IMG/VR virus record: IMGVR_UViG_3300021961_000274
Span: 1-36,624 of that record
DNA: 36,624 nucleotides
Direction: 5' to 3' (one strand)
Origin: a virus
Numbering within the stretch: position 1 is the first letter of the stretch; each line of letters starts with the position of its first letter. The notes beneath the pieces were generated by a model. The model was not told the origin of the DNA and ran no database searches. It saw nothing but the letters and a program-made list of their open reading frames with translations. This document shows, in pieces, positions 11,405-34,867 of this stretch. A program made the translations under genes and the position numbers.

Positions 11405-13282
11405 ATGAGAAATTTATTAGAACAATTAAATAGAATGAAAGATTTAATGGTGTATGAAAAAGGTACACCTATTAATGAAATTTCTACCACAGTTGGGGGA
11501 TCAACTAATGTGGAAAAAACTAAATCTTCAGAAGTAAATCTCAATAGTGGAGGTGAAACTAAATCTTCAGAAACAAATGATGACACAAAAAAATCAAATG
11601 ATTGTATAGTTATAAAAGCTTCAGGTGAATTTGTTGTTGATGTTGATGAAAATAGTGGTGCGGTAACAAACTTCATAAAAAATTTAGAAACTGTAGTAAA
11701 AAATAATCCCGACTTTAATCAGGCAAAAGTTAAAGGTGGGTCAATGTTTATTACAGAAATAACTCTACAAGGATTTGCAAGTAATTACTATAAGGGTACA
11801 ATAGAACCAGACTTTGATAATAACTGGTGTAAAAAATGGGAACGCAGGGGTAATTTATATGATGGGTTGTGTAGTGATTGGGAAATTAAATCTTTTTCAG
11901 GTAAAAAATTATCTTCATATAGTGGTAAAAAAGGTGAAAATAATCAATTAGCAAGTAGAAGGGCAGAAAATTTATATAAAGCACTTAAAGAAAAACTTAC
12001 AAAAAAGGCGGAAGAAGAAGGAATTAAGATTGATCCTAATTTAAAACCTAAATATTTGCAAGGTGGAACAATTTATACTGAAAATAAGGTTGATGAAAAT
12101 TGGAAGACACGCATAAGTCAAGGAAAAATTAACCCAGGACAAATAGTTTTATGTACTGCAACTTTATGTTATGAGTTACCTAAAGAGTGTACAGATGCTT
12201 GTATGGAAAAGGATAAAGAAGGTAATTGTAAATGTAAACCTGGATTAAAAGAGGTAGATGGTAAGTGTGTTTGTGAAAAAACTAATGAACCACCTGACGA
12301 AAATTGTGAATGTAAAGAAAAAAAAGAATGTCCTAAGTGTCAAGAGGAAGACGATAAAGGTGAATGTAAATGTAAACCTGGATTAAAAGAGGTAGATGGT
12401 AAGTGTGTGTGTGAGGATGGTTCAGAACCAGATGACGATTGTAATTGTAAAAAGAAAAAAGAATGTCCGACTTGTCAAGAACTGGATGAAGAAACTAATA
12501 ATTGTAAATGTAAGGCGGGATTAAAAGAACAAAAAGACGCTGAAGGTAATATCACATGTGTATGTGAAAAAGAAGATGAAATATTAAATACTGCGGGGGA
12601 AAGTTGTAAATGTGAAAAAAAGAAAACCCCACCTAAATGTAATCAAACTTATGATATAAAAGGTGGTAGAGGAAAAAAAGAAAATAATTTTGTAAATAAA
12701 TCGTTACAAACAGAATGGCCGTTCTCAGGAACGGGTGAAGTAACAATTACTTTCGATCCTTTAATTGTACCAGATGCGTTCTACATAAAATATGGTGAAC
12801 AAGAATTTTGGAGTGGTTTTGTTGGGGATGTTTATAACAAGTCTGAAGGGTTATATAAAATGGCTAGTGTCCCTGATGATATTAAAAATAGATTTTATAA
12901 AGACATTTTCCCTAGTAAAATAACAAGTGAAAATGACACTAGTATAGTTGATAGGTATCCTAGAAACTTCGCAGGTGAGTTAGTATGGTATAAACAAAAT
13001 GACGGTTTATTAGAGTCTATAAACGCGGAAATAAGTAAGGTTGGTGGAACACCAATTAATAACATATTTAAAAATGGTGATGGAAACGCAGAAAAAATCA
13101 CTAATGGTATAAAAAACACTAAAACCAAATTAAAAGATATATATGATAGTTATGGAGATGTTTTAAAAGGTGATAGATCATTTACTATGAAAAAATTAAA
13201 AGATGATGAAGAAAAAATAACTATATTAGTTTTCTCACCGCTAGCCGAAACAATATTTAAAATGAAAATAGAATGTAAATAA
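11405..13282 (+). CDS. OmpA-like/EGF-like Cys-repeat protein with putative head-targeting peptide
   Basis: The 625-residue protein has four parts. Residues 1-25, MRNLLEQLNRMKDLMVYEKG then TPINE, form an amphipathic helix ending in an (I/L)-x-E site, as in T4 capsid-targeting peptides. Residues about 65-255 resemble an OmpA C-terminal-like fold: a strand ITLQGFAS and the helix NQLASRRAENL (180-190), with an insertion in between; the usual 'GHTD' aspartate is missing. Residues 262-412 hold 25 cysteines in three modules of eight, with the repeated core CKCKPGLKEVDGKCVC. The C-terminal 200 residues are an unrecognised domain (WPFSGTGEVTITFDP onward). It opens the late operon ahead of gp25. A virion role is likely; whether it is internal or tail-associated is unresolved. 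Confidence 0.6.
   Translation: MRNLLEQLNRMKDLMVYEKGTPINEISTTVGGSTNVEKTKSSEVNLNSGGETKSSETNDDTKKSNDCIVIKASGEFVVDVDENSGAVTNFIKNLETVVKNNPDFNQAKVKGGSMFITEITLQGFASNYYKGTIEPDFDNNWCKKWERRGNLYDGLCSDWEIKSFSGKKLSSYSGKKGENNQLASRRAENLYKALKEKLTKKAEEEGIKIDPNLKPKYLQGGTIYTENKVDENWKTRISQGKINPGQIVLCTATLCYELPKECTDACMEKDKEGNCKCKPGLKEVDGKCVCEKTNEPPDENCECKEKKECPKCQEEDDKGECKCKPGLKEVDGKCVCEDGSEPDDDCNCKKKKECPTCQELDEETNNCKCKAGLKEQKDAEGNITCVCEKEDEILNTAGESCKCEKKKTPPKCNQTYDIKGGRGKKENNFVNKSLQTEWPFSGTGEVTITFDPLIVPDAFYIKYGEQEFWSGFVGDVYNKSEGLYKMASVPDDIKNRFYKDIFPSKITSENDTSIVDRYPRNFAGELVWYKQNDGLLESINAEISKVGGTPINNIFKNGDGNAEKITNGIKNTKTKLKDIYDSYGDVLKGDRSFTMKKLKDDEEKITILVFSPLAETIFKMKIECK
12185..12640 (+). repeat. Three tandem 8-Cys modules (about 46 codons each)
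   Basis: The NC-K-C pair of each module starts at 12227, 12365 and 12503, an exact 138-base period. The first two copies are identical over 44 bases (12227-12270 and 12365-12408), so one duplication is recent; the third copy is diverged and carries a five-residue insertion. Each module has the order EC-x2/3-C, CKC, KCVC, CxC. Confidence 0.9.
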
Positions 13283-13343: not shown

Positions 13344-13727
13344 ATGGCAAAGACTAATTATATAAATATTGATTTCCCTTTTAAGGATAGTGACAAAGGT
13401 TTTTATTTAAATTTAAATCAAACATCGAGAGACGCTATTAGGGCTGATTTATTACATCTTTTATTAACTAATAAGGGTGAAAGACTATATTTACCCGATT
13501 TTGGTAGTGATTTAAAGAAATATATATTTGAACCTAATGATAGTATTACACATGAAGAAATTAGAGATAACTTAAATGATACCATAAAAAAGTATATCCC
13601 TAATTTAATTATTAATAGTATTATTTTTAGAAATAATGAGGTAGAAGAATCTATTGTTGTAGAAATAACATTTACAGTTACAGAAGATTCTTTTTCTAGT
13701 ACTGATACTGTGACATTAACTTTTTAA
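13344..13727 (+). CDS. 25: Baseplate wedge protein, gp25-like (GPW/gp25 family)
   Basis: The 127-residue protein matches the lysozyme-like GPW/gp25 baseplate family in length and pattern. It has an N-terminal INIDFPFKDSDKGFYLNLN, a helix with RADLLHLLLTNKGERLYLPDFGS, and the following LKKYIFEPND. The conserved 'GER.x.PxFGs' region is the family hallmark. In T4 and related contractile machines this protein sits in the inner wedge of the baseplate and contacts gp6 and the sheath. It lies three bases before the gp6-like gene, the same neighbour relation seen in many contractile tails. Confidence 0.88.
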   Translation: MAKTNYINIDFPFKDSDKGFYLNLNQTSRDAIRADLLHLLLTNKGERLYLPDFGSDLKKYIFEPNDSITHEEIRDNLNDTIKKYIPNLIINSIIFRNNEVEESIVVEITFTVTEDSFSSTDTVTLTF

Positions 13728-13730
13728 TAT

Positions 13731-15560
13731 ATGGTAAAAAAAATTGATTATAATGCTAGGAATTTCGCAGATGTAAGAAGACAACTGATAGAATTCATAC
13801 AAAAATATTATCCAGAAACATTTTCAGATTTTAATGACGCATCAGTAGGTATGATGTTATTGGAATTAAATGCTGCGGTAGGTGATATGTTATCATTCCA
13901 TACCGATAGAATGTTTAACGAGACACAAATAAATTATGCGCAAGAAAGATCTTCAGTATTAGAATTGGCAAGAACTTTTGGTTTAAATATTCCGGGGAAA
14001 AGACCTAGTATTACTATTGTAGATTGGACAGTTACTAATATACCTGTTAAGGGTGACACATTTGACATTAGTTACGCACCTAAAATATTAAAAGGTTCAC
14101 AAGCATCTGGAGCGGGTAAAGTATTCGAACTTTTAGAAGATTGTGATTTTTCTTCCCCATTTACTACTGGTGGAATACCAAATAGACTTATAATACCTAA
14201 TATAGATGGTACAGGTACTATACAAAACTATTCTTTAACTAAGAGAGAAATAATGGTTAATGGTATAACTAAAACATTTAAAAAAGTTTTAACTAGAAAT
14301 GACTATAAACCATTTTTAGAAATTATTTTACCTGAAAACAATGTATTGTCAATTGAAAATATTATAACAAAAGAAGGTACTAATTTCATTAATCAACCAA
14401 CCGAAGAAGAATATTCGGACTTCGATCTTAATTGGTACGAAGTACCTGCATTAGCACAAGCACAAGTGTATGTAGTCGATGAAAATGCGGTATCAGATAG
14501 AGAAGGTGTTGTTGTAGGTAAATGGAAAAATTCACCACAAAGATTTATTAAAGAATATACTGATAATGGATTTTGTAAAATTATATTTGGTGCTGGTGAT
14601 CAAGACACATCAGAATTAAATGAATTTGTGGGTTGTAGAGGACAAATAGAGAGGATAGGTAAAACAGTTAACAATTTATCATTGGGGGAAATACCTCAAA
14701 CAGACAATACTCTTTTTATTAGATATAGAATTGGTGGTGGTGAAGATAGTAATATTGGTCCAAACACTATAACATCATTAGGTACTGTTATTCCTATTAT
14801 AAATGGTGATGATAGTAATACTAATAGAATTATTGGACAAAGTATTAGTGTTAATAATCCTATTCCCGCATTGGGTGGTAAAGAACAACCATCTGTAGAT
14901 GAAATCAGAAATTTAATTAGATATAATTTTTCCGCACAAAATAGATGTGTTACAATAAAAGACTATCAAAGTAGAGTACCACTAATGCCTGGTCAATTTG
15001 GAGTTCCATTTAGAACTGGTGTGTATGAAGAAAGAAATAAAGTTAATGTTTCTATTTTAGCATTAGATGAAAATAGTAAATTAACAACACAATCAACTTC
15101 CGCATTGAAGCAAAATATTGCGGAGTATTTGGCGGACTTTAGAATGATTAATGATTATGTTACAATTAAAAACGGTAGAGTTTTAAATTTGGCATTTGAG
15201 ATAGATGTTTTTATAGAAAAGGCAGTACCTAAAGGACAAGTTATTAGTGGTGTTATTAAACAAGTTACAGATTATATGGATATTAATAAATGGGATATGG
15301 GAGATAATATCTATATATCTCAGTTAGTAGAAAATATTAACAATGTTGGTGGCGTATTAAATGTTACAGATTTAAGAGTATTTAATAAAGTTAATGAGAA
15401 TGGTAAGTATTCTCTTAATGAAGTCGCCCAGCCATATATTGATGATGAAACAAGACAAATAGATTTATTAGGTAGATATACATTATTTGGGGAACCTAAT
15501 GCTATGTTTGAAGTTAAATACCCTAATAAAGATATTAAAGTGACAATTTCCACTTCATAA
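13731..15560 (+). CDS. 6: Baseplate wedge protein, gp6-like (baseplate J family)
   Basis: The 609-residue protein should be the central wedge subunit that forms the baseplate iris around the hub. The N-terminal part (NARNFADVRRQLIEFIQKYY, then DFNDASVGMMLLELNAAVGD) is the typical start of T4 gp6 and baseplate J-like proteins. The RSSVLELARTFG helix follows, then the beta-rich middle. The C-terminal half carries CVTIKDYQSRVPLMPGQFG, matching the 'vTieDye.la' region of the J family, and ends in strand-rich repeats. T4 gp6 is 660 aa. It follows gp25 by three bases. I am confident in the family; exact partners are inferred. Confidence 0.88.
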   Translation: MVKKIDYNARNFADVRRQLIEFIQKYYPETFSDFNDASVGMMLLELNAAVGDMLSFHTDRMFNETQINYAQERSSVLELARTFGLNIPGKRPSITIVDWTVTNIPVKGDTFDISYAPKILKGSQASGAGKVFELLEDCDFSSPFTTGGIPNRLIIPNIDGTGTIQNYSLTKREIMVNGITKTFKKVLTRNDYKPFLEIILPENNVLSIENIITKEGTNFINQPTEEEYSDFDLNWYEVPALAQAQVYVVDENAVSDREGVVVGKWKNSPQRFIKEYTDNGFCKIIFGAGDQDTSELNEFVGCRGQIERIGKTVNNLSLGEIPQTDNTLFIRYRIGGGEDSNIGPNTITSLGTVIPIINGDDSNTNRIIGQSISVNNPIPALGGKEQPSVDEIRNLIRYNFSAQNRCVTIKDYQSRVPLMPGQFGVPFRTGVYEERNKVNVSILALDENSKLTTQSTSALKQNIAEYLADFRMINDYVTIKNGRVLNLAFEIDVFIEKAVPKGQVISGVIKQVTDYMDINKWDMGDNIYISQLVENINNVGGVLNVTDLRVFNKVNENGKYSLNEVAQPYIDDETRQIDLLGRYTLFGEPNAMFEVKYPNKDIKVTISTS

Positions 15561-15999: not shown

Positions 16000-18900
16000 A
16001 TGTCTAAGTCATACAGAATTAGGACAACACCAGGTCAAGAGAACAATGGTTATATACAAGTAAATGTTGATCTTAATCAAAACTATGATCACTTAGAGAT
16101 ACTAAGCCTTAAAATTTCTCAAAAAGACGATTACCAAAACTTTTGTGCTGATTATGGTGTAGTAGCGGGTAGAGTAATTGTCAATAATGGGTTCGGTGTA
16201 CCAAATGTAAAAGTTTCAATATTTGTTCCTGTACAAGATTCCGATTTAAGTGACCCAGTAAAATCTGCAATATATCCATATAAAGAACCATTTCCTGATC
16301 AAAAGAATAAAAATGGTGTTAGGTATAATTTATTACCTAAAAATCAACAATCATTTGATCACACACCAGTAGGCACATTTCCAAAGAAAAGAGAAGTATT
16401 AGATGATAATACAACATTAGAAATATATGAAAAATATTATAAGTACACAACGGTAACTAATGAAGCGGGTGATTATATTTTATTTGGGGTACCTGTAGGG
16501 GATCATTTCTTACATTACGATATGGATGTAAGTGATATTGGTTTTATTTCGATAAGACCTTTTGAAATGATAGACAAAGATGGTTATAGTGACGATTTAT
16601 TTAATAGTAGATTTAAATATAAAGGTTCTAATAACTTAGATAGTTTACCACAAATATTTTCTGAAAACATTCCTATCACAGTAGAACCTTATTGGTGTGA
16701 TAGTTTAAGTGTTGGTAGTGGTTTAGGTATTAATAGGTATGATATCGAACCAAATATATCAATTACACCTACCGCAATCTTTATGGGTAGTATATTTTCT
16801 GATGACGAAAAAGATTCATTAAACAAAAATTGTAAACCCGCCAGAGAGATGGGTAAACTTAATGAGGTTATCACAGGACCAGGTAAGATTGAGGCTATTA
16901 GAAGGACTGTAGATGGGAATATAGAAACATTTGACTTTAATGATAACTCTATAGATGATAATGGTAACTGGTCGGTATTAGTACCTATGAATATTAGGAA
17001 GGTTGTTACTGATGAGTTTGGTAATTTAGTTCCATCACCTGACGGAATTAAAGGTATTGCGACAGAAGGAGATTATAGATTTAGAGTGTCTATGGACGCA
17101 ACATCTAATGATAAAAGACTTAGACAAAGGGCGAAATATTTAGTACCTAATACAAACAACAACTTTAGTTTTGGGGAGTTTTCTATAAAACAATTAAAAA
17201 AAGATAGACCTTTTACTAAGAATGTACAATTAAGTCAAACAACTTTAGGTACACAATATGAAGATGACATAACAAACCAATATAACTATTTAGAAGAGTT
17301 TTTCCCTTTTAGATGGAAGAAAGTTTACACGGTAAAACAATATATTGGGAGAATGCAAAAAACTCCCATTGCTTTTGATCAAAAAGATGAATCCAGAGGG
17401 TTTATAGGGATTAAAGATATTATAAACGCAGAAGGAGTTAACAAATTCCCAACAAATAGAACAGACACAACAATTAATCCAATATATAGTATTATTTGTA
17501 TATTGGTTGTTTTATTTGGGCATATAGTAGGGTTCATCAATGGTATTATACAATTTATAAATGGACTTATAACTTTAATTTGTAATATAAAAATTCCTAC
17601 TGGAATATGTACAGAAAGTTATAAAAATAGTAGAGTACAATCGAGATATGTAGTTGAAAGGTGGAACGGTAGTGTTTGGGATACTGGTGGTGGATTTGCT
17701 AATGATGAAGGGGATAGTGCATTTACAACAGATATTGATGTTGATACAGTTAGTGGTGGTGATTTTGATGGTGGTTATGGAAATTGTGGTGATTTAGAAA
17801 CTCAAGTATTTAATGTACCTACACCACTTAATGGGTGGAAAGCTTTAGGGAGTCCATTAACTGTTTGTAATGGTAATAGTGGCACATATTGTAAATTTGC
17901 TGATAATCCTGCTACTGGACCAACTATAACTGGTGGTGCAATAGGACATCAAGGTAGATATCCTAAAGATAGTAATTTAGGAAATAATTGGGAACTAATA
18001 GGTGGTGATGCAAATGGATTGGCTAGTAGTTCTGCCGATTTTTGGTGTCCGAAAACAAGTTCAGGATTTGGACCAAATGGAGGATTATATTGTTACAATT
18101 TTGAGGATTGTTGGGATCCTGCAGGTGGTATACCTAGTAGTGAACCAGCAACTAAATGTAGAAGATGGAAATATGCCGATGGTAATGAAATAAAATTAAG
18201 AAATTGCCAGGGTGTTACTGATCAAGCAGAAAAGGCTGCATGTAGTAGTACAGGTGGGTTTCCATTATTTGGTAAGTGTTGGAGATTAAAAAGAAAATGT
18301 TTGTTCTCTACTACTCTATGTAATAATTGTAAAGATGGTTGTAATGGTGAAGAGTTTAATTGTTGTGGTAATAATGATTGCATAGAAAACCCATCAATAT
18401 GTGGGGGACCAGAAGACGGATGTTGTGGTGGAAGATGTTGTCAAAGAATAGGGTTGATTCCATTAAAGTGTGCAGATGAAGGTGTTGAATTAGAAATAAG
18501 TTTAATTAACTTACAAGGTTTTTCACCAGCTTGTAATAGAACTTATGTTAAACCATTTGCTTGTGTGAATTGTGGTGGTAGACAAACACCTGGCATTAAA
18601 GATTGGGCATCTTGTTTATTGGAACCTGTTGCGGTTTTCTTACGGATGTTAAAATTTGACTTTTATAATGATTGGGTGGGTGGTACATTATATTTCCCAC
18701 TAATAAAAAGACAATATAAGTTAAAAAAGTCAAAAAGGAAATTTGGACAAATTAAAAAAGACAAATTCTGTGATTTTGAATGTAAGGAAAGAGTAGGTTT
18801 TGAAAATAACCAATTCGGAATACCTGTTCCTGTTTTTAGTAATAATTTTCAAGGTAACCCAACATTTAAACAACATAGGATAAGAATAAGAACATTAGGT

Positions 18901-21408
18901 AACCCAGCCTTCCCTACAATAACTATTGGTGGTTGTACTGCGAGAGTATTATTAAAAAGAGCGACTGATTGGTATGGTACACCAGAAAATGATGCGGAAA
19001 TACCTAATTTGGATTTATCAGTGCAAGAATTTAAATTTAATGGTAGGGATAGTAATAATGAAAAATGTTCTATAATTTTTAACAATTTCTCGGAATTCCA
19101 AAACGAAATGAACGCGCAGGGTGTTGATTTTGACACACCTGAAAGAGAAATACAAACAGAACATGGGAAGCCTGCATATGTAGAAACAGAAGATTCTAAT
19201 GGGACATCCACTTGGAAAAATATTGGTGGTCATGCACACCATAGAAACATATGTGATGAAACTAAAATGGTTGAAAGAAAGGAATATTTTAAAACTTCTT
19301 TAGACTGTTTAAATAGTAGTTGTGAAGGCGCACAAGGAGATTTTAATGATGATGATAACCCATTAAATGGGTTTGGTCAAACAGACGATGATGGTGATCA
19401 AGATTGTTGGAGACCATTCCAACCTGAAGTAAGTAACCAATTAGCTGGTGGAGAAGATTATTGTAAATTAGTTTCGTGTAATCCTGATTGTGGTTCTAAT
19501 GGTGTAGCACCTTGTATTAAAAACAATACTGATGAATACACACAATATAGTAAAATAATTAAACATGGTTTAATAACTTGGGAAGAAGGGGAAATATATT
19601 ACACACCCTATATTCCACCACAAGATGTGAAATATAATGATGTAGAATATAAGGCGAATTTAATGTTACCTACAACAATTATGGAATTGGGTAGTAGTGT
19701 TTATTGTGATATTGATGATATCCCATTTATTATGGATGTATTACCACCTACAACATTTAACGCTAGTTACGAAGATATAAAGTATAGATTTGGACAAACT
19801 GATTCTAATTATCCTGGTCCTGATGGTAACGCTGGTACTACAGAAGATAATGGAATTTTTAAATCAATAACTAAATTTGACGATAAAAAAGATGTATCTT
19901 TAAATCTTAGGGCATATGTAGAGTTTGCTTGTTTTAAAGTAATTTGTGAGAATATTATGGCACCAGTCGTACAATCACAAATAGGTGTTGATATAATAGA
20001 TAAAAATGATATAGGTATAGAGATAGGTAATTGTTTTGTGAGATTTGATCATGATGATGAAGTAAGAAATTATTTCTGTAGAAGATTTAATGGTTATAAA
20101 GGGGGTGATTTATCTTTCCACCACCAAAGACCAGGATCTGTACAATATGAAAATGAGTATAACACATATCAAGACATAACTTTAACCGATGGTGTTAACA
20201 TATATTATCAGTTACCCGATGGAGATATTGTTAAATCAGAATATAATGATGGAGATTCTTTTACCCCTGGCGATGGTTGTGGTTATAGAAATACAAACGG
20301 ACCCACTGACTTTTTCTATGGAGTTGCACCGGGACAAACATCTTCATTTATTAACTACCCTAATGCAGACACCTCTTTTAGTGGTAATGGAACAATTAAT
20401 TTCGGACAGACTGCACAACTTGACGGTACTGATGAAATATTTATAGGTGTTGCAAATAGTGGGGGTGATATTTCATTACAAGATGACCCTAACAATGGGA
20501 GTACCCAAATTAAAGGTATTAGGTTTAATCGTAGTCAGACACCATATTATTTGTATTTTGGTTTAGTACCAGGAAAAACTGCGTTACACAAAACTGTTGG
20601 TAAATTCTTTGCGGATAGAATAAATGCAGTGACATTAGAAGGGTTAGGTGCGTCACCTGATAGTGTAGAAGAAAATATTAATAACACACCTAACATAAAT
20701 AATGTACAAGATAATACATTTAGTGTATTTAGAACTTGTTTGGGTGATACACTAATACAAACCATACCCGTTGGCGATGTATTATTAAATACTAATACCA
20801 CAGGTGGTGGATCACAAGGTAATAACAACCCATCTGGTGGATCAGGATCAAGTGGTAGTGGAACAGGTTCAGGTGGAGGTACAACAACAGGAGGTAATGT
20901 TGGGACTAGTGGTACAGGATCATCAGGTGGGGTAGGAGGAACGACACCTACATTTAATCCTGAAATCAGTTTTAATCCTTTTAGTGGTGGTATACCACAA
21001 ACACAAACAAATGATTTTACATTAGTAGACTCTTTTGGTAATACATTTAATAGTCCAGTTACTATAACATCAGCACCTTGTACTGTTTATGGTGAAGTTA
21101 CTGAAACTAGGAACTTTACAATAGAGTTAAATTCGGGTACTGCTACAATAAATGTTACTATGTATGGAGGAGGAACTTATAATTTATGTCCTAATACAAT
21201 TGGGTCAAATGGGAACGCATTTAACGTTTTAATTAACAATGGTAACGGAGGACCGATAAATCAAACAATAGTATCAGAAGTTGTTGGGGTATATAACAGT
21301 AGTAATCAAACTTATACTATTAACAATGTGGGAACATATGAGGTACAAGTTGAGGTTATACCTTACTTTAATTTTGATGGGTTTGAAATTAGCGTTAGTG
21401 TAAGTTAA
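16000..21408 (+). CDS. Giant baseplate/tail protein (1802 aa) with Cys-rich region and hydrophobic segment
   Basis: I recognise no single named family. Residues 1-50 (SYRIRTTPGQENNGYIQVN) lead into a carboxypeptidase-regulatory-like beta-sandwich at about 55-185, seen in VAGRVIVNNGFGVPNVKVS and NEAGDYILFGVPVGDHFLHY. A hydrophobic stretch lies at about 495-530 (IYSIICILVVLFGHIVGFI onward), able to span a membrane. A dense Cys cluster covers 767-814, with CC-x4-C, C-x6-CC and CCGGRCC spacings. A Gly/Ser/Thr-rich linker (about 1603-1647) separates a beta-rich C-terminal domain (1648-1802). The gene lies 10 bases after the membrane protein gene in the baseplate operon. A structural or host-penetrating tail role is inferred from position, size and domains. 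Confidence 0.65.
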   Translation: MSKSYRIRTTPGQENNGYIQVNVDLNQNYDHLEILSLKISQKDDYQNFCADYGVVAGRVIVNNGFGVPNVKVSIFVPVQDSDLSDPVKSAIYPYKEPFPDQKNKNGVRYNLLPKNQQSFDHTPVGTFPKKREVLDDNTTLEIYEKYYKYTTVTNEAGDYILFGVPVGDHFLHYDMDVSDIGFISIRPFEMIDKDGYSDDLFNSRFKYKGSNNLDSLPQIFSENIPITVEPYWCDSLSVGSGLGINRYDIEPNISITPTAIFMGSIFSDDEKDSLNKNCKPAREMGKLNEVITGPGKIEAIRRTVDGNIETFDFNDNSIDDNGNWSVLVPMNIRKVVTDEFGNLVPSPDGIKGIATEGDYRFRVSMDATSNDKRLRQRAKYLVPNTNNNFSFGEFSIKQLKKDRPFTKNVQLSQTTLGTQYEDDITNQYNYLEEFFPFRWKKVYTVKQYIGRMQKTPIAFDQKDESRGFIGIKDIINAEGVNKFPTNRTDTTINPIYSIICILVVLFGHIVGFINGIIQFINGLITLICNIKIPTGICTESYKNSRVQSRYVVERWNGSVWDTGGGFANDEGDSAFTTDIDVDTVSGGDFDGGYGNCGDLETQVFNVPTPLNGWKALGSPLTVCNGNSGTYCKFADNPATGPTITGGAIGHQGRYPKDSNLGNNWELIGGDANGLASSSADFWCPKTSSGFGPNGGLYCYNFEDCWDPAGGIPSSEPATKCRRWKYADGNEIKLRNCQGVTDQAEKAACSSTGGFPLFGKCWRLKRKCLFSTTLCNNCKDGCNGEEFNCCGNNDCIENPSICGGPEDGCCGGRCCQRIGLIPLKCADEGVELEISLINLQGFSPACNRTYVKPFACVNCGGRQTPGIKDWASCLLEPVAVFLRMLKFDFYNDWVGGTLYFPLIKRQYKLKKSKRKFGQIKKDKFCDFECKERVGFENNQFGIPVPVFSNNFQGNPTFKQHRIRIRTLGNPAFPTITIGGCTARVLLKRATDWYGTPENDAEIPNLDLSVQEFKFNGRDSNNEKCSIIFNNFSEFQNEMNAQGVDFDTPEREIQTEHGKPAYVETEDSNGTSTWKNIGGHAHHRNICDETKMVERKEYFKTSLDCLNSSCEGAQGDFNDDDNPLNGFGQTDDDGDQDCWRPFQPEVSNQLAGGEDYCKLVSCNPDCGSNGVAPCIKNNTDEYTQYSKIIKHGLITWEEGEIYYTPYIPPQDVKYNDVEYKANLMLPTTIMELGSSVYCDIDDIPFIMDVLPPTTFNASYEDIKYRFGQTDSNYPGPDGNAGTTEDNGIFKSITKFDDKKDVSLNLRAYVEFACFKVICENIMAPVVQSQIGVDIIDKNDIGIEIGNCFVRFDHDDEVRNYFCRRFNGYKGGDLSFHHQRPGSVQYENEYNTYQDITLTDGVNIYYQLPDGDIVKSEYNDGDSFTPGDGCGYRNTNGPTDFFYGVAPGQTSSFINYPNADTSFSGNGTINFGQTAQLDGTDEIFIGVANSGGDISLQDDPNNGSTQIKGIRFNRSQTPYYLYFGLVPGKTALHKTVGKFFADRINAVTLEGLGASPDSVEENINNTPNINNVQDNTFSVFRTCLGDTLIQTIPVGDVLLNTNTTGGGSQGNNNPSGGSGSSGSGTGSGGGTTTGGNVGTSGTGSSGGVGGTTPTFNPEISFNPFSGGIPQTQTNDFTLVDSFGNTFNSPVTITSAPCTVYGEVTETRNFTIELNSGTATINVTMYGGGTYNLCPNTIGSNGNAFNVLINNGNGGPINQTIVSEVVGVYNSSNQTYTINNVGTYEVQVEVIPYFNFDGFEISVSVS
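20806..20940 (+). repeat. Gly/Ser/Thr-rich low-complexity linker
   Basis: An irregular GGT/GGA/AGT-rich tract encodes a flexible linker (TTGGGSQGNNNPSGGSGSSG and on) of about 45 residues, just before the C-terminal domain of the 1802-aa protein. It is not a perfect tandem repeat. Confidence 0.8.
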
Positions 21409-26347: not shown

Positions 26348-29300
26348 ATGGCGAACAACGATAGAATTAAAGTTTCGGGATATGTTAAAAGGATATTCTT
26401 CAATGACAACATTGAGTATCGTAATTTTAGTCCCGATTTAGTAGGATTCCAGCTTACAAGTGAGGGAGGTACTACTTTATTTACTAATGGTAATTTTAAC
26501 ATTACAGTTAATTTAGATCCTAAACCTGATGTTCTATTTACACAGGGAACTAAATCTAAATTTTTTACTTTAGATGATATTGCCGATTCAGAAGCACAAA
26601 TACAAATACAAGAAAATTTAAAAGTTAAATTAAATTTAGATTTAACTAATCCACTTAGTTATGTTTGGTATGGATCATTCAAAGAGTTATTAAGAAGTTC
26701 TTTAATTGAGATACAGAATAATTGGCCTGCAGCTATTTATGTGGATAATAAAGTTGGTAGTGTTACTGGTAATAATATCACAAATTATGTTTACGATATT
26801 TCATCGGATTCGGCTACTTTTAATGTTAATAGTAATTTCTTTGTAAATCCATACAATATAAAGTATACTATAGACTCTAAATACGTATCAACAGATAGTA
26901 CAGATAATCCATTAAGAAACTTAATGTTAAGTTATGGTTCATATGTTATAGAACATAATGGAATTACAAAAAATGTAATAGGATTTTCAGGGTCAACGCA
27001 AAAGACTAATTCTGAAATAACTTTAGTTGTAGAGGGTAACCCATTTCCTGAATTAACAGGTATATACATTCCACAATATTCATTTTTAGTTAATGAAGTG
27101 GATGCGTCTATACCATATTTTATAAAACCTAATCAAAGTCATAAAGAAAGTTTTTTCACAGGTTTAAACGAGTTACAAAATAATTTACTTAATAGAGAAA
27201 TTTATCCCGAATATAGGTCGGAAATTATTGGTAGTAAAGTTACGGATAATGGTATTTTATTAACCACTAAAAAAGTTTTAGATTTCCCAATTTTAGATGA
27301 TGGGTACAATTTAAATTTTTTCGATAGTTTTTATATCTCTTATTTAGATAAATTAAATGAATTGGCTGAAAATTTAGATGAATCTAAAACTGATATTATA
27401 CTTAGAAAATATACTACTGAAGCAATAAGTAGTTTTGACACAATTCCTAGGGCTGATGGAGATGATTTAACATTGAATGGTGAAAAGGCGACTAAACTGA
27501 TGAGAGTATACGGAGTGGAATTTGATTATATTAAAAAATATATTAATGGAATTAAATTTGCACATGTTGTAACATACAATAAGAAAAACAATGTTCCTGA
27601 TGCATTAGTTAAAGATTTGGCTTTTATGTTAGGTTTAGAACCTATAAATTTTATAAATGACACATCATTTTCTAAATTATATTTACCTAGTAACGGTGAT
27701 GGTCAATTTGCGGGAACATCAACAAACTTAAGTCAAGCACAAATCGATATTGAGTTGTACAGAAGATTAATACTTAATATCGCTTGGTTATGGAAAAGTA
27801 AGGGTAGTAGAAAAGCAGTAGAATTTTTATTTAGATTTATAGGTGCGCCTGAAATGTTAGTAAACTTTAATGAATATATTGTAGTTTTAGATAAACCACT
27901 AGACATTGAAGAGATTAAAAAATTATTATACATTTATACGGGAGAAGTTGATTTAACTAACATTCCTTATGATAGTAATGGTTATCCACAACCCCCTATT
28001 AATGGTGATTTAGTTATCACAAATTTTATTGATCCTGAAACGGGACAAGTTGTAGAAAATGGATCCACAGAAATGTACTTCCAAAAAGCTGGGGGATGGT
28101 ATAGAGAAACCTTTGGGAATAATTCAGTAACCGTTTTAAATGGTAATAACCCACACATTGGACCTTATGATGGTGGTAGTGAATATCTACAATATTTTAG
28201 TAGATGTTTTATACCTAATTTCGATAACGAACCTACTGTTGTTATAACTGCAGACACTATATTACAAAATTATTTTGTTAACTATAATTATGGTATTTTT
28301 AATACAATACCTACAGGATCTACAACTGCATTTACTACACAAGTAACCTATAACGATGTAACAGGAGCCTACCAACCAATAGATAATTGTTTAGATGTTA
28401 GTTACTCAATTATAGAAACACCATTACAAAATGATGGTAAGACAACATTACAACAAGCGTTTTCAGAGGCAGAATCACAATACAATGAATTTTTAGAAAG
28501 AATTAAAAAAGATAGTTATTTAATTTATTCACCAGAGTGGCAAATAATTAAAAATAATTATGAATTGTCTTTAAAAAATTGTTTAGAGGAAATTGAAACT
28601 GAGAATTGTGATATAAACAAAACTTTAGAAATTTGTTTAAATGATGTCGAAGTAGAAAGTGTAGAATACAATTGTGATAACTTAACATTAAATGAGTGTT
28701 TACCATTTTATTACTATACTAATGAAGAAGGTAATAAAGTAAGTTTTGATCAATTTCCACAATGTTGTTCTAGTTTGGACGCTAGATATGTTTCATATGT
28801 AAATGAGTATGGTAGATTGACAGAATATTGTGGAGCTAGCTCACCTTGTGTTGGGGAACCATTAGAACCATTACCTAATGGTATTATACCATTTTTAATG
28901 ACTAATAATACGATACCTGAAAACATATATCAAGTATCGGGCAGATGCTTTCAATATATTGGAAGCGATATAGTAGATATATTAAGTTTTGAATCATTTT
29001 TTGAATATACTCCTGAAGAAGTAATTACGTCTTTTTTATTGGGGGATTATATATTAAATGTTGAATTTGTAAAATTATTTAATGAAGTATCATGTCAATC
29101 AACTTCTATAATTAGTAGTCCTGAGTGTTGTGCATTTTATGGATTTAATTATACATTACTTAGTGATGGTACAAATGAGTATATTGCTTGTGTTAAATAC
29201 AATGATTTATTGGGTAATGATATTACTATACCACAATATCAATCACAAAATATTCTTAATTTAGATTCATATACTATACCTTTAATAGATACTAATGTTA

Positions 29301-32300
29301 ATGATAGTTATTATGATTTACAGAATCCTATAGGTGAAGTATTTAATTACTACTCAACAGATATTTATTGGGAATGTTTTTTTAAAAGTAGAATAGTTAA
29401 AGAGGTAGTTAACCAAAATAGTCTTTTAATACCACAACCTAATTCTATTTTAGATGATCCTTCACTTATGAACCCATCAAACTGGATGGTACATGCAATA
29501 GATGAATATGGTAGAGTTTCTTTTATACCTGTAATTTTTAATAATAATTTTATATTAGATTGGAATAGTAATGAACAATTAAGTGACTTATATCAATCTA
29601 TTGCTAATTATTTTGGGTATACATTTGGGTATTTCACAATAGACACTAATAGTGGTTTATTGATACCTTTTACTGGGGATAATCCATATAGTACTAATCC
29701 TAATACAATATTTAGTGCGGCAGTTGATAGTAATTATATTGGTTGTAATAATTTTAATAATGTATCTGTCATATTTGGTAGTGAGAATTGGCAAGGATTT
29801 AAGTTACCTGAATTAGAGGATTGTAGTTGTACAATTGACTTTTCGTTTGATTATATGTTAAAATATAATGCAAATAAACTAATAGAATGTGCAGACAATA
29901 TATCTTGTCATCCAGCAATAATTTATGATAATACAATAAATAATGTTAATTGTTTAAATTTTGTTGCATTTACAAATACAGACGAAGAATCCCAAACATT
30001 ACAAAATAACTTTAATGATAATGAGAATTTTGAATCTGAGTACATAATATGGAATAATACAAATGTTTTAGAACCAGATGTTGAATGTTGTAATGCAATA
30101 GGTGGTAATGTTGTTTCTGTAACACAATGGGCATCCAATAACCAAATATGGGTTAATCAGATAAACCAAACTTATGGTCAGTTATTTAATCCTACTACTG
30201 AATTATTATCTTCTTTAAACTTTAATACTGCAGAAATAATAACCTATATTGAAACATATAAAACTGTTAAATCTGAGGTTGAGTCAATTATTGAAGGGTG
30301 TTTTAACTTAGAATTATTATATCCAATATGTGATATTAACTATGGTAATTATATTAATACCCAAAGTATTTGTAATTTAAAAATTCCTTTAGAATGTGGT
30401 ATATGGTCTAAATTATTAACAGATTATAAAACTTTAGAAAATGCAATTACTAATGTCATAAATCAATATTCTTCTATATGTTTGGATGAAAACGGTAATT
30501 TGAAATCGAGTAGCGGTTTTGGGGGTAATAAAAATGCCTCTGATCCAATTACAGACGAAACTATGGATCAAATTAATAATTTAAAGGCATATAATAATTT
30601 AACTACACAATTAGAAGAAGAATTAACCAAATTAAAGTCTGAGGAAAATATTTTAAATGGTGAGATTAATGACATACAAAATAAAATAGCTCAAAAAAAT
30701 TATGATAATAATATTATAGAAAAAGCATTAACTAATGTTAACAATCCTATGGATTGTACTGTATATGATAATAAAATAACAGAATTAAATAATTTTAATT
30801 ATAACACATATTGTAATACAATTGTTTATGGTTCACCTAATATAAATAACGGTACTAAACAAATAGAATATAATAGTTGTATTACTTCTAAAACATTAGA
30901 AAATCAAAATGAATTAGTTTTATATTCACAATTATTAGAAGATTGTAAACTTAAAAATAGTATAGAAATACAATTAAAGAATGCTAAGTTTGATAATAAT
31001 GTTGAATTAGTGACGGAATTAGAAACCCAACTTAATGATGTAAATAATCATATTAACACATTAACTACTGATTACAATAATAGTATTAGTTACGATGAAT
31101 CAAAACAACCATCAACGATAGAAAGTAACGATACTCAAAATACTATAAATAAAACTGCAGAATTATTAAATACGACACCTAACAATATAACAGATGATTC
31201 AGGAAATTTAATTTTAACAGATAATCAAAAAATTAATTTAAACATTCAATATACTAAAAACAATTCACAAGTTAGTGATTTAAATATAAAATTGGGTGAA
31301 AAAATTGCGTTATTAACTGAAAATTTACAAAAACAAAATCAAGTAATTAATGGTACTAAGAACGAACAAAATAATTTAGGTGGTAAACTATTTAGTTGGG
31401 GTGTAGGATTAATCGGTCTATATTATACACTAAAAGGTTATTTAGATCCTGAAGTATATGGTGTGACTATGGCAGCAATTGGTCCTGCTGGGCCCGGAAA
31501 AGATAATGGTGGTCCTGGTGGTGGGGGTGGAGGACCATTGACATCTGGTTGTGATAAACCTAATGGGACACCTTTTGTGGTTGCAGATAGTAATAGCCCC
31601 ACAGGATATTACCAGTACATAATTAATTCATATAATCCAAATGCAGATATCATTTGTTCTTCATGGTCAAATCCTTATTTATCCACAAGCTGGTCATTAG
31701 CAGGTGGAGGTGGAAGTGGTGTATATAGTAATGGGTGTTGTACTGCAATTAGGACAACATATTCGCCCGATACAGGTGGGGGTACTGGTAATGGTATAGG
31801 TATTTTAGCACCCGATAAAGAAGATTTATTTACACCTACTGGTGATGGTGTAGGAACTGGTGGTGGTACAGGAACTGGAGGTACAGGAACTGGAGGTACA
31901 GGAACTGGTGAAGAAGCCCCAAGTGGGTGTAAATTAGATAACCCGAATTTATTTGTGCAAACACCAACAGGTGCGGTTTTATATAATGGTGCTAATATTA
32001 AAGAAGAATGTTGTAATTCTACTAATATACCTTTTGAGGGTATTTATTCATTTGACTCAATAACAAATGAATGTATATTAGTAAATACTTTTGATGGTGG
32101 TGGCGGGACGACAGATAACGTAACTTGTTGTGATTTAGTAGATGTGACACAATTACAAATATTATTAGAAACATTACAATTAGAAATACCTTCTATAGAA
32201 CAAAAAACAATAGAATGTTATGAAAATTGGTATGTCACATTACAAGAAAATTATACCACTTACGAAGAAGATAATAATAGTTATTTTGATAAGTACTTAG

Positions 32301-34867
32301 ATGATTTAAAAGTTAATTTTAAATTATTTGTTAATAATACAAATGTAGACACACAAACAAGTATAGATACAGGATTAACTTATTTACCTTACACAGAAAG
32401 TATTAATCCTATTTGGGAATGGAACCCAACTAATGGGTATACTGGTGTAATATTAGAAGGTACTGAACAAGAAATTGCGACAATAGAAGATGGAATATTT
32501 AATCACCTTTCATTGTTAAATGTCCCATACAATGCAGATATGTTTGAGCCAGCGTGGCAAACATTTAAATTTACAATTCCTGAATGTGTATGTGATGACT
32601 TAAGAAGATTATATCCAAATAAAGAGTTCTTCTTCTCAATAGGGTTAGAAAATTACGAATGTTCACTATGTTTATTAGTAGACAATATTAAAGTAAATGT
32701 TGCAGATTGTCAAACACAAAGATTATTGTCTATTAATGATTGTATGATACCACAATTAAGTTGTGTGATAGATAATAAAAAATCTTGGGTTTATTATGAT
32801 GATGGTGTCATTAAGGAAACAATATATCCTAATGGAAGTTGTAATACTGGATCAACAAATAATTATGAGATTGTCAAATTAGGGAAATCTCAAGAAAGAT
32901 TATGGTTAGATTTAGAATATAGATATACTGATTATAACATAAATCATTCAGATTTAATTCTTAATGTTAAGAATACTTCATTTAGTATTGACCCTGCTAA
33001 GGCGATAGAATGTGATGTATTTAATTATTGGAAAAATATTGATTGTGATAATTGCCCGACTAAATGTTTAGATGACTCTAAAATTTTTGAGAGTGGTGAA
33101 GACTTCTTATTTCAAGATTGTAACACTTATATTTTTGAAGATCAATCTACTGAACATCCTATAATATATAGTGGTGAAGTTTTAAACACTGGATACACAC
33201 TATATTTTGAAGATGTCCTCACAACAGGATTAACATTTAGTTGTTCTACATATACCGATTCATTAACACAAAGTGTTTTAAGTTTAAAAAATAAGTATTA
33301 TATATTGACATCAGATTACATTGAATCTTTAGATGCAACTTATCATCAGTTAATAGAAAAAGGTGGGTATTTAGATAATTTTTATATACAAAAAAATAAT
33401 TGCGGAACTGATACCATAGTAATAAATAATAATGGTGAATTAAATAATTTATTTGGTGTTATAACAGAAAATTACGATGGTAGTATATCGTTATTTGAAA
33501 CTTATTTATATAGTGGTGTTACACCTTATAGTGGTGGAGTATTAAGTGAGGTATTATCGGGAACAGGTATAACTGCACAAACATTTAACCAAAAACAATA
33601 TATTGATCAGAGTTGTTGTGAATCACTAAATTACTTATTAAATAGTGAAGGTGTAGATGGTTTAGGATTAGGTAAAAATTATACTTGGTCAGATGAAAAT
33701 TGTGGTTGTTTTTGGAAACCATTAAATGAGTGTAGTAATTGTAAGGGAGATTGTGAATATTGTGGGAATAAAAAAGAATGTGTAGATGGATTTGCGACGG
33801 GAGATACTTATAGTGTTTGCATCAACCCGTTAGATTATTTAGATATACAACCATCGGAGATTAATGTTAAGTCAGTATTTGATCAATTAGTACAAACAAA
33901 TTTAATTGACGCTAAGAGTAGACAAACAATTAGTGATTACCCATTATTAAGATTGTTCTACGAATTATATCTAAACGCTAATAATTGTGGTAAAGATTTA
34001 TCTGGTAAATTTACATACGATACTATGTTCGAATTTATGGATAAGATTGGTGATTATTGGTTAGATTTATTAGAACAAGTAGTTCCTGCGACTACAATAT
34101 GGGAAGGTTGTGATAATTCAGGTAAAATATATAGAAATACTATATTTGATAATAATAAATTTATATATAAAAGATATAGTACTAATTTTATTGATGTTGA
34201 GTCTGGTTGTACATTAACTGCACAAACTAATTTTAGTATTGGTTCAGAATCTAAATATAGTTTAGTAGAACAAAAACCTATATACCCATCTAGTCCTGAG
34301 ATAACACTACTTAAAACAGATATCTTAAATAAGGAAGTTGAGATTGCGTTATTGAAAAAAGAAATTGAAAAACAGAATTCTATATTATGTGCGATAAGAC
34401 TGCAGGATTTGAGTACACCTAATTTACAAGAACAGATTGATCAACAACAAAGTAATATAGATTTACTAAATAATGAATTAGAAGAATTAAATTTACAATT
34501 AATAGACTTAAACACTCAATTAGACGATTTAGAAAATGAGTACATATTACAACAACAAAATTATATTAATAATTTTATGAGTTGTAGTGGTATAACACAA
34601 AACTTAATAAATGCACAAAATAACTTATCAGGTTTTACACAAGGTACAACCGCATATGAGAGACAAAGAAACTTTATTGCAGGACTTAGAGATAAGTATA
34701 GTAAGTGTGTTAGAAAGGCGAATACACTAATTAGTGATTATAATACAATATTCATTACACAAATATATGATAGTAATGAATATGAAGGAAATGTTATTAT
34801 TACTGGGGATCCTGATTATGATGAAGGGGGTTCTTACTATAATCAAGAATTAATTCATAATTGTTAA
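26348..34867 (+). CDS. Giant tail/baseplate protein (2839 aa), possible gp7/gpI-like N-terminal part
   Basis: The largest gene of the window. The N-terminal 500 residues look like a baseplate protein. The segment IAWLWKSKGSRKAVEFLFRF then IGAPE (about 477-500) resembles the 'KGT..ai..ll..lG' core of P2 gpI-like tail proteins, and the wedge protein gp7 of T4 occupies a comparable role. The rest is modular. Seven Cys-Cys doublets start at residues 806, 927, 1247, 1797, 1888, 1927 and 2423. There is a coiled coil at about 1417-1460, Gly-rich linkers at about 1708-1735 and 1810-1860, a dense Cys cluster at about 2452-2480 (ECSNCKGDCEYCGNKKEC), and a long C-terminal coiled coil at about 2654-2745. 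T4 gp7 is only 1032 aa. A structural tail role is likely; the precise homology is uncertain. Confidence 0.6.
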   Translation: MANNDRIKVSGYVKRIFFNDNIEYRNFSPDLVGFQLTSEGGTTLFTNGNFNITVNLDPKPDVLFTQGTKSKFFTLDDIADSEAQIQIQENLKVKLNLDLTNPLSYVWYGSFKELLRSSLIEIQNNWPAAIYVDNKVGSVTGNNITNYVYDISSDSATFNVNSNFFVNPYNIKYTIDSKYVSTDSTDNPLRNLMLSYGSYVIEHNGITKNVIGFSGSTQKTNSEITLVVEGNPFPELTGIYIPQYSFLVNEVDASIPYFIKPNQSHKESFFTGLNELQNNLLNREIYPEYRSEIIGSKVTDNGILLTTKKVLDFPILDDGYNLNFFDSFYISYLDKLNELAENLDESKTDIILRKYTTEAISSFDTIPRADGDDLTLNGEKATKLMRVYGVEFDYIKKYINGIKFAHVVTYNKKNNVPDALVKDLAFMLGLEPINFINDTSFSKLYLPSNGDGQFAGTSTNLSQAQIDIELYRRLILNIAWLWKSKGSRKAVEFLFRFIGAPEMLVNFNEYIVVLDKPLDIEEIKKLLYIYTGEVDLTNIPYDSNGYPQPPINGDLVITNFIDPETGQVVENGSTEMYFQKAGGWYRETFGNNSVTVLNGNNPHIGPYDGGSEYLQYFSRCFIPNFDNEPTVVITADTILQNYFVNYNYGIFNTIPTGSTTAFTTQVTYNDVTGAYQPIDNCLDVSYSIIETPLQNDGKTTLQQAFSEAESQYNEFLERIKKDSYLIYSPEWQIIKNNYELSLKNCLEEIETENCDINKTLEICLNDVEVESVEYNCDNLTLNECLPFYYYTNEEGNKVSFDQFPQCCSSLDARYVSYVNEYGRLTEYCGASSPCVGEPLEPLPNGIIPFLMTNNTIPENIYQVSGRCFQYIGSDIVDILSFESFFEYTPEEVITSFLLGDYILNVEFVKLFNEVSCQSTSIISSPECCAFYGFNYTLLSDGTNEYIACVKYNDLLGNDITIPQYQSQNILNLDSYTIPLIDTNVNDSYYDLQNPIGEVFNYYSTDIYWECFFKSRIVKEVVNQNSLLIPQPNSILDDPSLMNPSNWMVHAIDEYGRVSFIPVIFNNNFILDWNSNEQLSDLYQSIANYFGYTFGYFTIDTNSGLLIPFTGDNPYSTNPNTIFSAAVDSNYIGCNNFNNVSVIFGSENWQGFKLPELEDCSCTIDFSFDYMLKYNANKLIECADNISCHPAIIYDNTINNVNCLNFVAFTNTDEESQTLQNNFNDNENFESEYIIWNNTNVLEPDVECCNAIGGNVVSVTQWASNNQIWVNQINQTYGQLFNPTTELLSSLNFNTAEIITYIETYKTVKSEVESIIEGCFNLELLYPICDINYGNYINTQSICNLKIPLECGIWSKLLTDYKTLENAITNVINQYSSICLDENGNLKSSSGFGGNKNASDPITDETMDQINNLKAYNNLTTQLEEELTKLKSEENILNGEINDIQNKIAQKNYDNNIIEKALTNVNNPMDCTVYDNKITELNNFNYNTYCNTIVYGSPNINNGTKQIEYNSCITSKTLENQNELVLYSQLLEDCKLKNSIEIQLKNAKFDNNVELVTELETQLNDVNNHINTLTTDYNNSISYDESKQPSTIESNDTQNTINKTAELLNTTPNNITDDSGNLILTDNQKINLNIQYTKNNSQVSDLNIKLGEKIALLTENLQKQNQVINGTKNEQNNLGGKLFSWGVGLIGLYYTLKGYLDPEVYGVTMAAIGPAGPGKDNGGPGGGGGGPLTSGCDKPNGTPFVVADSNSPTGYYQYIINSYNPNADIICSSWSNPYLSTSWSLAGGGGSGVYSNGCCTAIRTTYSPDTGGGTGNGIGILAPDKEDLFTPTGDGVGTGGGTGTGGTGTGGTGTGEEAPSGCKLDNPNLFVQTPTGAVLYNGANIKEECCNSTNIPFEGIYSFDSITNECILVNTFDGGGGTTDNVTCCDLVDVTQLQILLETLQLEIPSIEQKTIECYENWYVTLQENYTTYEEDNNSYFDKYLDDLKVNFKLFVNNTNVDTQTSIDTGLTYLPYTESINPIWEWNPTNGYTGVILEGTEQEIATIEDGIFNHLSLLNVPYNADMFEPAWQTFKFTIPECVCDDLRRLYPNKEFFFSIGLENYECSLCLLVDNIKVNVADCQTQRLLSINDCMIPQLSCVIDNKKSWVYYDDGVIKETIYPNGSCNTGSTNNYEIVKLGKSQERLWLDLEYRYTDYNINHSDLILNVKNTSFSIDPAKAIECDVFNYWKNIDCDNCPTKCLDDSKIFESGEDFLFQDCNTYIFEDQSTEHPIIYSGEVLNTGYTLYFEDVLTTGLTFSCSTYTDSLTQSVLSLKNKYYILTSDYIESLDATYHQLIEKGGYLDNFYIQKNNCGTDTIVINNNGELNNLFGVITENYDGSISLFETYLYSGVTPYSGGVLSEVLSGTGITAQTFNQKQYIDQSCCESLNYLLNSEGVDGLGLGKNYTWSDENCGCFWKPLNECSNCKGDCEYCGNKKECVDGFATGDTYSVCINPLDYLDIQPSEINVKSVFDQLVQTNLIDAKSRQTISDYPLLRLFYELYLNANNCGKDLSGKFTYDTMFEFMDKIGDYWLDLLEQVVPATTIWEGCDNSGKIYRNTIFDNNKFIYKRYSTNFIDVESGCTLTAQTNFSIGSESKYSLVEQKPIYPSSPEITLLKTDILNKEVEIALLKKEIEKQNSILCAIRLQDLSTPNLQEQIDQQQSNIDLLNNELEELNLQLIDLNTQLDDLENEYILQQQNYINNFMSCSGITQNLINAQNNLSGFTQGTTAYERQRNFIAGLRDKYSKCVRKANTLISDYNTIFITQIYDSNEYEGNVIITGDPDYDEGGSYYNQELIHNC
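31865..31909 (+). repeat. Three tandem copies of a 15-base Gly/Thr repeat
   Basis: GGTACAGGAACTGGA occurs at 31865-31879 and 31880-31894, and a third copy at 31895-31909 ends in T. It encodes GTGTG three times in the Gly-rich linker of the 2839-aa protein. Copy number could vary by slippage without breaking the frame. Confidence 0.9.

Follow-up and report, generated by a model that had tools for sequence, protein, structure and literature searches.

A 36.6-kb virus record (36,624 nt; the whole stretch was analysed and is called the window here) includes one ORF of 2839 aa that carries seven CC doublets, at residues 806, 927, 1247, 1797, 1888, 1927 and 2423. The locus raises the question of whether these doublets are copies of a single module, what the Cys residues do, and what kind of protein contains them. 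An earlier note had listed the seven doublets, and the ORF translation contains exactly these, each at the residue given. The note's cluster ECSNCKGDCEYCGNKKEC was likewise confirmed, at residues 2461-2478 (33728-33781). The feature is real and well conserved and its first interpretation is partly correct, with a weak repeat relation among some CC sites. However, the proposed form (E/Q/S)CC-x-(G/S) does not fit the set, as it is CC-x3-G that recurs, at three of the listed sites, and the cluster does not end the Cys series, as eight further Cys, from 2491 to 2839, follow it and are mostly conserved, including the last residue. The C-terminal landmarks are:

26348..34867, + strand, giant baseplate protein, 2839 aa, 77 Cys (20 distinct full-length sequences)
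33728..33781, + strand, Cys cluster ECSNCKGDCEYCGNKKEC, residues 2461-2478, single Cys lost in varying combinations in relatives
34295..34729, + strand, C-terminal helical, coiled-coil-like segment, residues 2650-2794 (AF2 helices 736-880 of model 2)
34862..34864, + strand, Cys2839, the last residue, conserved in 23/24 aligned sequences

The window encodes a gp32-like protein, UvsX, an exonuclease, DnaB, ribonucleotide reductase, gp25 and gp6. The ribonucleotide reductase (8630-10510) shares 68 % identity with its counterpart in Microcystis phage Mel-JY01 and 61-62 % with Vibrio and Oceanospirillum phage genes named as 'recombinase', apparently in error. The giant follows gp25 and gp6, which start at 13344 and 13731, after six intervening genes, and hence occupies the position of a baseplate-cluster gene. 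Its N-terminal third includes a core that is shared with Cys-poor genes of other phages and carries RRLxxNxxWxxKSKGxRKxxEFLFRFIG.

13344..13727, + strand, gp25-like baseplate wedge subunit (phrog_261, E 2.9e-21)
13731..15560, + strand, gp6-like baseplate wedge subunit (phrog_219, E 9.7e-20; homologues in Mel-JY01 and immuto)
26348..28204, + strand, N-terminal third of the giant without Cys, residues 1-619 (Cys counts in 32 aligned sequences)
27338..27883, + strand, shared core, residues 331-512 (hhalign E 3.9e-7 to Cys-poor genes of three phages)

When an N-terminal profile was used in hmmsearch, one gene, in the matching position, was found in each of Mel-JY01 (4e-6), LR756508 (1.3e-4) and Flavobacterium phage immuto (6e-3). 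These homologues, WWT39511 (1336 aa), an unannotated ORF of 1404 aa and QQO92079 (1265 aa), respectively, share the core and lie a few genes downstream of gp25/gp6, two genes after gp6 in Mel-JY01 and immuto. The gp25 and gp6 genes upstream and the syntenic homologues support the earlier description of a long tail protein, more specifically as a baseplate protein. In contrast to the giant, the three homologues are half its length, contain 3-9 Cys and lack the Cys-rich arm. The simplest view is therefore that this lineage acquired the arm, the alternative being its loss in the other phages. The result is a baseplate protein about twice the length of its distant homologues.

A relationship to T4 gp7 and P2 gpI (BW3) is suggested by the position after gp25/gp6 and by hhalign, which gave its best alignment on the KG motif, aligned in both proteins (E 0.55 and 0.3). 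However, the sequence score is not significant, P2 gpI has only 176 aa, T4 gp7 shows nothing like the Cys-rich arm in the part examined, and Pfam and PHROG searches returned no match linking the giant to gp7/gpI. We consider a gp7/gpI-like wedge protein plausible but unproven. Sequence searches of Pfam, PHROGs and the PDB with the giant or its alignments gave no credible match. AF2 models of the giant are of modest confidence (pLDDT 65 and 59, pTM 0.37 and 0.32), and with Foldseek they had no significant match in BFVD (first model) or the PDB (both models); connexin and coiled-coil matches with E > 0.1 were disregarded. A proposal that three neighbouring ORFs of 291-300 aa are paralogues, forming beads along the arm, was not supported.

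Viral contigs yielded 37 loci of the giant in a first scan and more in a second. The first set included 20 distinct full-length proteins of 2518-3106 aa, counting the one in this phage, and 32 related sequences from IMG/VR, 30-74 % identical, were aligned. No match was found in INPHARED by tblastn with either the whole giant or the module region of L058. One relative, L068 (same contig as L060), is on a contig from the Prochlorococcus single-cell genome AG-409-L21, through either infection or contamination; psbA, a sign of a cyanobacterial host, was not found in 13 related records, many of which are fragments. L006 (14140-14240) and L033 (12580-12680) each encode the giant as two ORFs that overlap in the ATGA manner; the break point differs between them, and the pattern resembles natural gene fission. 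A frame break in L025 was rejected as a gene split since it resembles a sequence error.

The distribution of Cys in the family has a sharp boundary near residue 619, with 8 Cys in 19,826 residues before it and 2,080 in 62,059 residues after it (32 sequences). Beyond residue 620, conservation in the 27 full-length sequences is highest for Cys and Trp; 52 % of Cys positions are at least 90 % conserved, a share at which Cys ties with Trp, against 5-24 % for other classes. Doublets 806, 927, 1247 and 1927 are nearly invariant (Cys806/807 kept in 31/32 sequences, Cys927/928 in 31-32/32, Cys1247/1248 in 29/30 and Cys1927/1928 in 28-29/30), and 2423 is mostly conserved (Cys2423/2424 in 24-25/28). Cys1797 was kept in only 3/30 and Cys1889 in 12/30.

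As a bare count, seven doublets are only modestly unusual. Shuffles of the whole protein gave a mean of 2.05 CC and reached seven in 3/2000, though, with every Cys located beyond residue 619, this exaggerates the excess; for the Cys-bearing part, simple arithmetic (77*76/2220) predicts about 2.6. Conservation is the stronger evidence. That the doublets are a functionless by-product of high Cys content would be in line with the expected number, but four of them are kept in nearly all sequences (28-32 of 30-32) and Cys is conserved as strongly as Trp, and we regard this explanation as extremely improbable.

The earlier note took the doublets to be diverged copies of one ancestral CC module that had been duplicated along the whole protein, and suggested self-alignment as a check, with an absence of repeat signal beyond the CC pair counting against it. 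At the sequence level, the outcome came close to such an absence. Profile-profile self-comparison with hhalign (37 tiles) revealed no convincing repeat, the best probability being 14 %, and HMMs of single modules matched other CC sites at E ~0.02-0.1 over only 10-20 residues centred on the CC. What remains is a faint relation among doublets 806, 927 and 1247 and a site near 1085 where the CC has been lost in this phage, all of which have the motif CC-x3-G-[GYF]. When profiles were compared with the CC masked, pairs among these four made up six of the seven best of 21 (each p ~0.05-0.13), for a group that was formed after inspection of the sequences; 1888, 1927 and 2423 fell outside it. In the AF2 models, a short helix at the CC followed by a hairpin is predicted at 806, 927 and the 1085 site, and a helix followed by one strand at 1247. 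The sites are as follows:

28736..28855, + strand, CC module M1 (CC806/807, closing C828; AF2 helix 803-809, strands 813-818 and 823-829)
29108..29197, + strand, CC module M2 (CC927/928, closing C948; AF2 helix 925-930, strands 934-939 and 944-949)
29579..29764, + strand, degenerate CC module Mx (CC1085/1086 and C1125 absent here; AF2 helix 1077-1088, then strands)
30065..30133, + strand, CC module M3 (CC1247/1248) without a nearby closing Cys (AF2 helix 1245-1250, one strand, helix)
31550..32077, + strand, variable Gly-rich insertion with CC1797 and CC1888, present in part of the family
32126..32131, + strand, CC1927/1928, the start of a long helix rather than a hairpin module (AF2, conservation, CC-masked comparison)
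33593..33721, + strand, CC module M7 (CC2423/2424, C2454; AF2 helix 2421-2432, strands 2445-2448 and 2453-2456)

M7 has the helix-then-hairpin order of M1 and M2, but its sequence is unlike M1-M3. At Mx, CC1085/1086 and C1125 are present in L028 and L058-L062, together with C705; L022 also has C705, adjoining a second Cys. Real duplication is seen solely in the variable insertion of relatives, where L022 (residues 1840-1910) carries a tandem duplication of a unit of ~50 aa with an ECC doublet, corresponding to the 1888 unit (HMM E 6e-13). L025 has a short match to this unit, and both L025 and L007 contain several CC units in the insertion.

Descent of all seven doublets from one module thus draws on the motif and top ranking shared by 806, 927, 1085 and 1247, on the helix and hairpin predicted for 806, 927 and 1085, and on the duplicated 1888 unit of L022. 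However, similarity beyond the CC pair does not extend to all seven sites, the cross-matches are weak and CC-centred, 1888, 1927 and 2423 stand apart from the group and 1927 precedes a long helix. We place this account on the unlikely side. Of the proposed old internal duplications, the faint relation at four sites stands while most doublets are not copies; the related sites probably number three or four and form a small family. An alternative to common origin is convergence of the CC sites on the same local geometry.

Gain and loss of individual Cys were followed on a tree built from the almost Cys-free N-terminal region, using Cys columns with at least two changes. With gaps treated as missing, identical presence sets were found for 11/305 Cys column pairs and for 250/517,946 pairs of other residues, so that identical histories are ~75 times commoner in Cys columns; the 11 pairs are mutually dependent because they include neighbouring Cys or Cys of one module (1085, 1086 and 1125; 822, 1024 and 1026). 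Counting gaps as absence gave 22/1210 Cys pairs and 347/689,703 other pairs and added 1735-1798, 1770-1797, 2258-2452 and 2299-2423, though this count is sensitive to indels and may be inflated, and Trp had a similar rate in it on few pairs (3/164). Most of the co-variation rests on two or three tree changes, and several identical sets, for example 1161-2478, may be lineage effects. One widely separated pair is C784 and C1010, 226 residues apart and present in exactly the same 19/32 sequences, with two tree changes.

28697..28699, + strand, Cys784, candidate partner of Cys1010 (same 19/32 sequences)
29375..29377, + strand, Cys1010, candidate partner of Cys784 (same 19/32 sequences)

The Gly-rich insertion has the Cys pairs 1735-1798, 1770-1797 and 1889-1909. 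Sequences without 1770 and 1797 can retain 1735 and 1798, as though the two Cys in the 1797/1798 doublet had separate partners, 1770 for 1797 and 1735 for 1798. C2423 co-varies with C2299 in the indel-sensitive count. Co-variation is moderate evidence that the arm Cys behave as structural disulfides, from which we infer the bonds. A further pair, C2681-C2746, was dropped as a simple hairpin disulfide because the turn predicted by AF2 is not midway between the two.

The earlier note had left the choice open between disulfide and metal knots. Metal sites, either zinc knots or Fe-S, would suit the C-x2-C spacing in clusters 2462-2478, 2233-2240 and 2105-2108 and the reducing state of the cytoplasm. 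However, a zinc knot or ribbon keeps four ligands per site, and 2462-2478, the cluster examined, has no such constancy: 2462 and 2472 are lost in L024, L058 and L025, and 2462 and 2465 in L016, L018 and L060-L062. Such varied losses argue against a fixed site with four ligands. Several Cys co-vary as isolated pairs that are distant in the sequence (784-1010, 2258-2452), and neither Pfam nor the PDB gave a metal-site match. As paired gain and loss favours paired disulfides over four-ligand sites, the disulfide half of the earlier proposal is retained, and metal sites in place of disulfides appear very unlikely.

Synthesis of tail proteins takes place in the cytoplasm, which is reducing. Among 13 related contigs, thioredoxin was found in 7/13 and glutaredoxin in 7/13, with CGPC in the two thioredoxins inspected, and DsbA in none. 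Together, these points count against the disulfide reading. However, thioredoxin and glutaredoxin are usual beside ribonucleotide reductase and therefore say little on oxidation.

Not all Cys can be in intrachain pairs, since the number of Cys is odd in many relatives of the giant. This, together with the conserved Cys at the last residue, leads to another possibility, namely that the Cys form inter-subunit disulfides which keep the baseplate locked until a redox trigger releases it, a mechanism proposed for Agrobacterium phage Milano. Milano has a disulfide-linked sheath and baseplate and requires reduction for contraction in vitro (PMC10811340), and a second Cys-rich giant is encoded in the same cluster here (16000-21408). 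However, the co-variation found is within one chain, the chain compared, and neither sheath nor tube was identified in the window. We judge a lock of this type unlikely.

The interpretation that we favour, if with a modest lean, is that the giant belongs to the baseplate wedge of a contractile-tailed phage and has a disulfide-stapled arm. Its observed basis is the conservation of Cys, their sharp boundary, their gain and loss in pairs, the synteny and the homology of the core. The N-terminal third would represent the ancestral wedge domain, devoid of Cys and perhaps of gp7/gpI (BW3) type, and the other 2,200 residues would make up a peripheral arm, specific to this lineage, that many disulfides within the chain staple together. 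A CC doublet in a short helix would, at several sites, stand ahead of a hairpin and its two Cys would bond different partners, one nearby at the hairpin and one farther off. The arm would fold reduced inside the cell and oxidise after lysis, and once oxidised may be stiff, protease-resistant and able to bear receptor-facing domains; we infer this oxidation step and the function of the arm, like the gp7/gpI identity, from the observations listed. A broader claim, that this is a previously undescribed family of giant wedge proteins in which CC is a double staple, the arm stiffens post-lysis and maturation or baseplate triggering is redox-controlled, is unlikely to hold in all its parts.

Disulfide-reinforced baseplates are already known, and on our best reading a Cys-rich arm on a wedge-like protein is a new variation. 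Phage 7-7-1 has a disulfide network in its capsid (PMC12796354), and the baseplate of Pam3 is described, in a citing article, as disulfide-linked to its fibres (as cited in PMC10329688). Like Milano and 7-7-1, this phage appears to be contractile with Cys-enriched virion proteins, their virion disulfides being known and those proposed here deduced. In Milano, interchain bonds observed in the virion link many proteins, whereas here Cys are concentrated in the arm of one wedge-like protein and in a few neighbours, and the bonds of the giant are predicted from co-variation alone. Tail disulfides of phages are known from few structures. The family, which has no whole-protein match in INPHARED, would offer extensive natural data on the construction, gain and loss of such a fold, and the specific Cys pairs named are directly testable.

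Cys enrichment in baseplate proteins, as in Milano, was found in the giant (77/2839 aa) and in an ORF of 1802 aa (54/1802 aa). The other proteins in the window have 0-11 Cys, except for one of 625 aa with 31. The 1802-aa ORF (16000-21408) has CC at 788, 808 and 813, a hydrophobic, membrane-helix-like stretch at ~495-535 and a weak carboxypeptidase-regulatory-like match; its counterparts in L058, L060, L061 and L041 have 47-63 Cys. The 625-aa ORF (11405-13282, 5 % Cys) is just upstream of gp25, has no Pfam match and, at residues ~261-412, includes about three imperfect tandem EGF-like units (CKCKPGLKEVDGKCVCE... CKKKKECPxC).

The distal part of the giant also varies among relatives. The inserts and domains concerned are at L033:12628-16152, L024:15356-19030 and L016:15272-19249. 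L033 has a distal PA14-like domain (E 3.5e-4, short of the Pfam threshold), L024 has a weaker one (0.075), and the L033 protein ends in an Lcl_C-like domain (E 4.9e-7). These domains agree with a peripheral, receptor-facing arm without proving one. In L024 and L016, inserts of ~340-410 aa lie between the Cys equivalent to 2478 and 2491.
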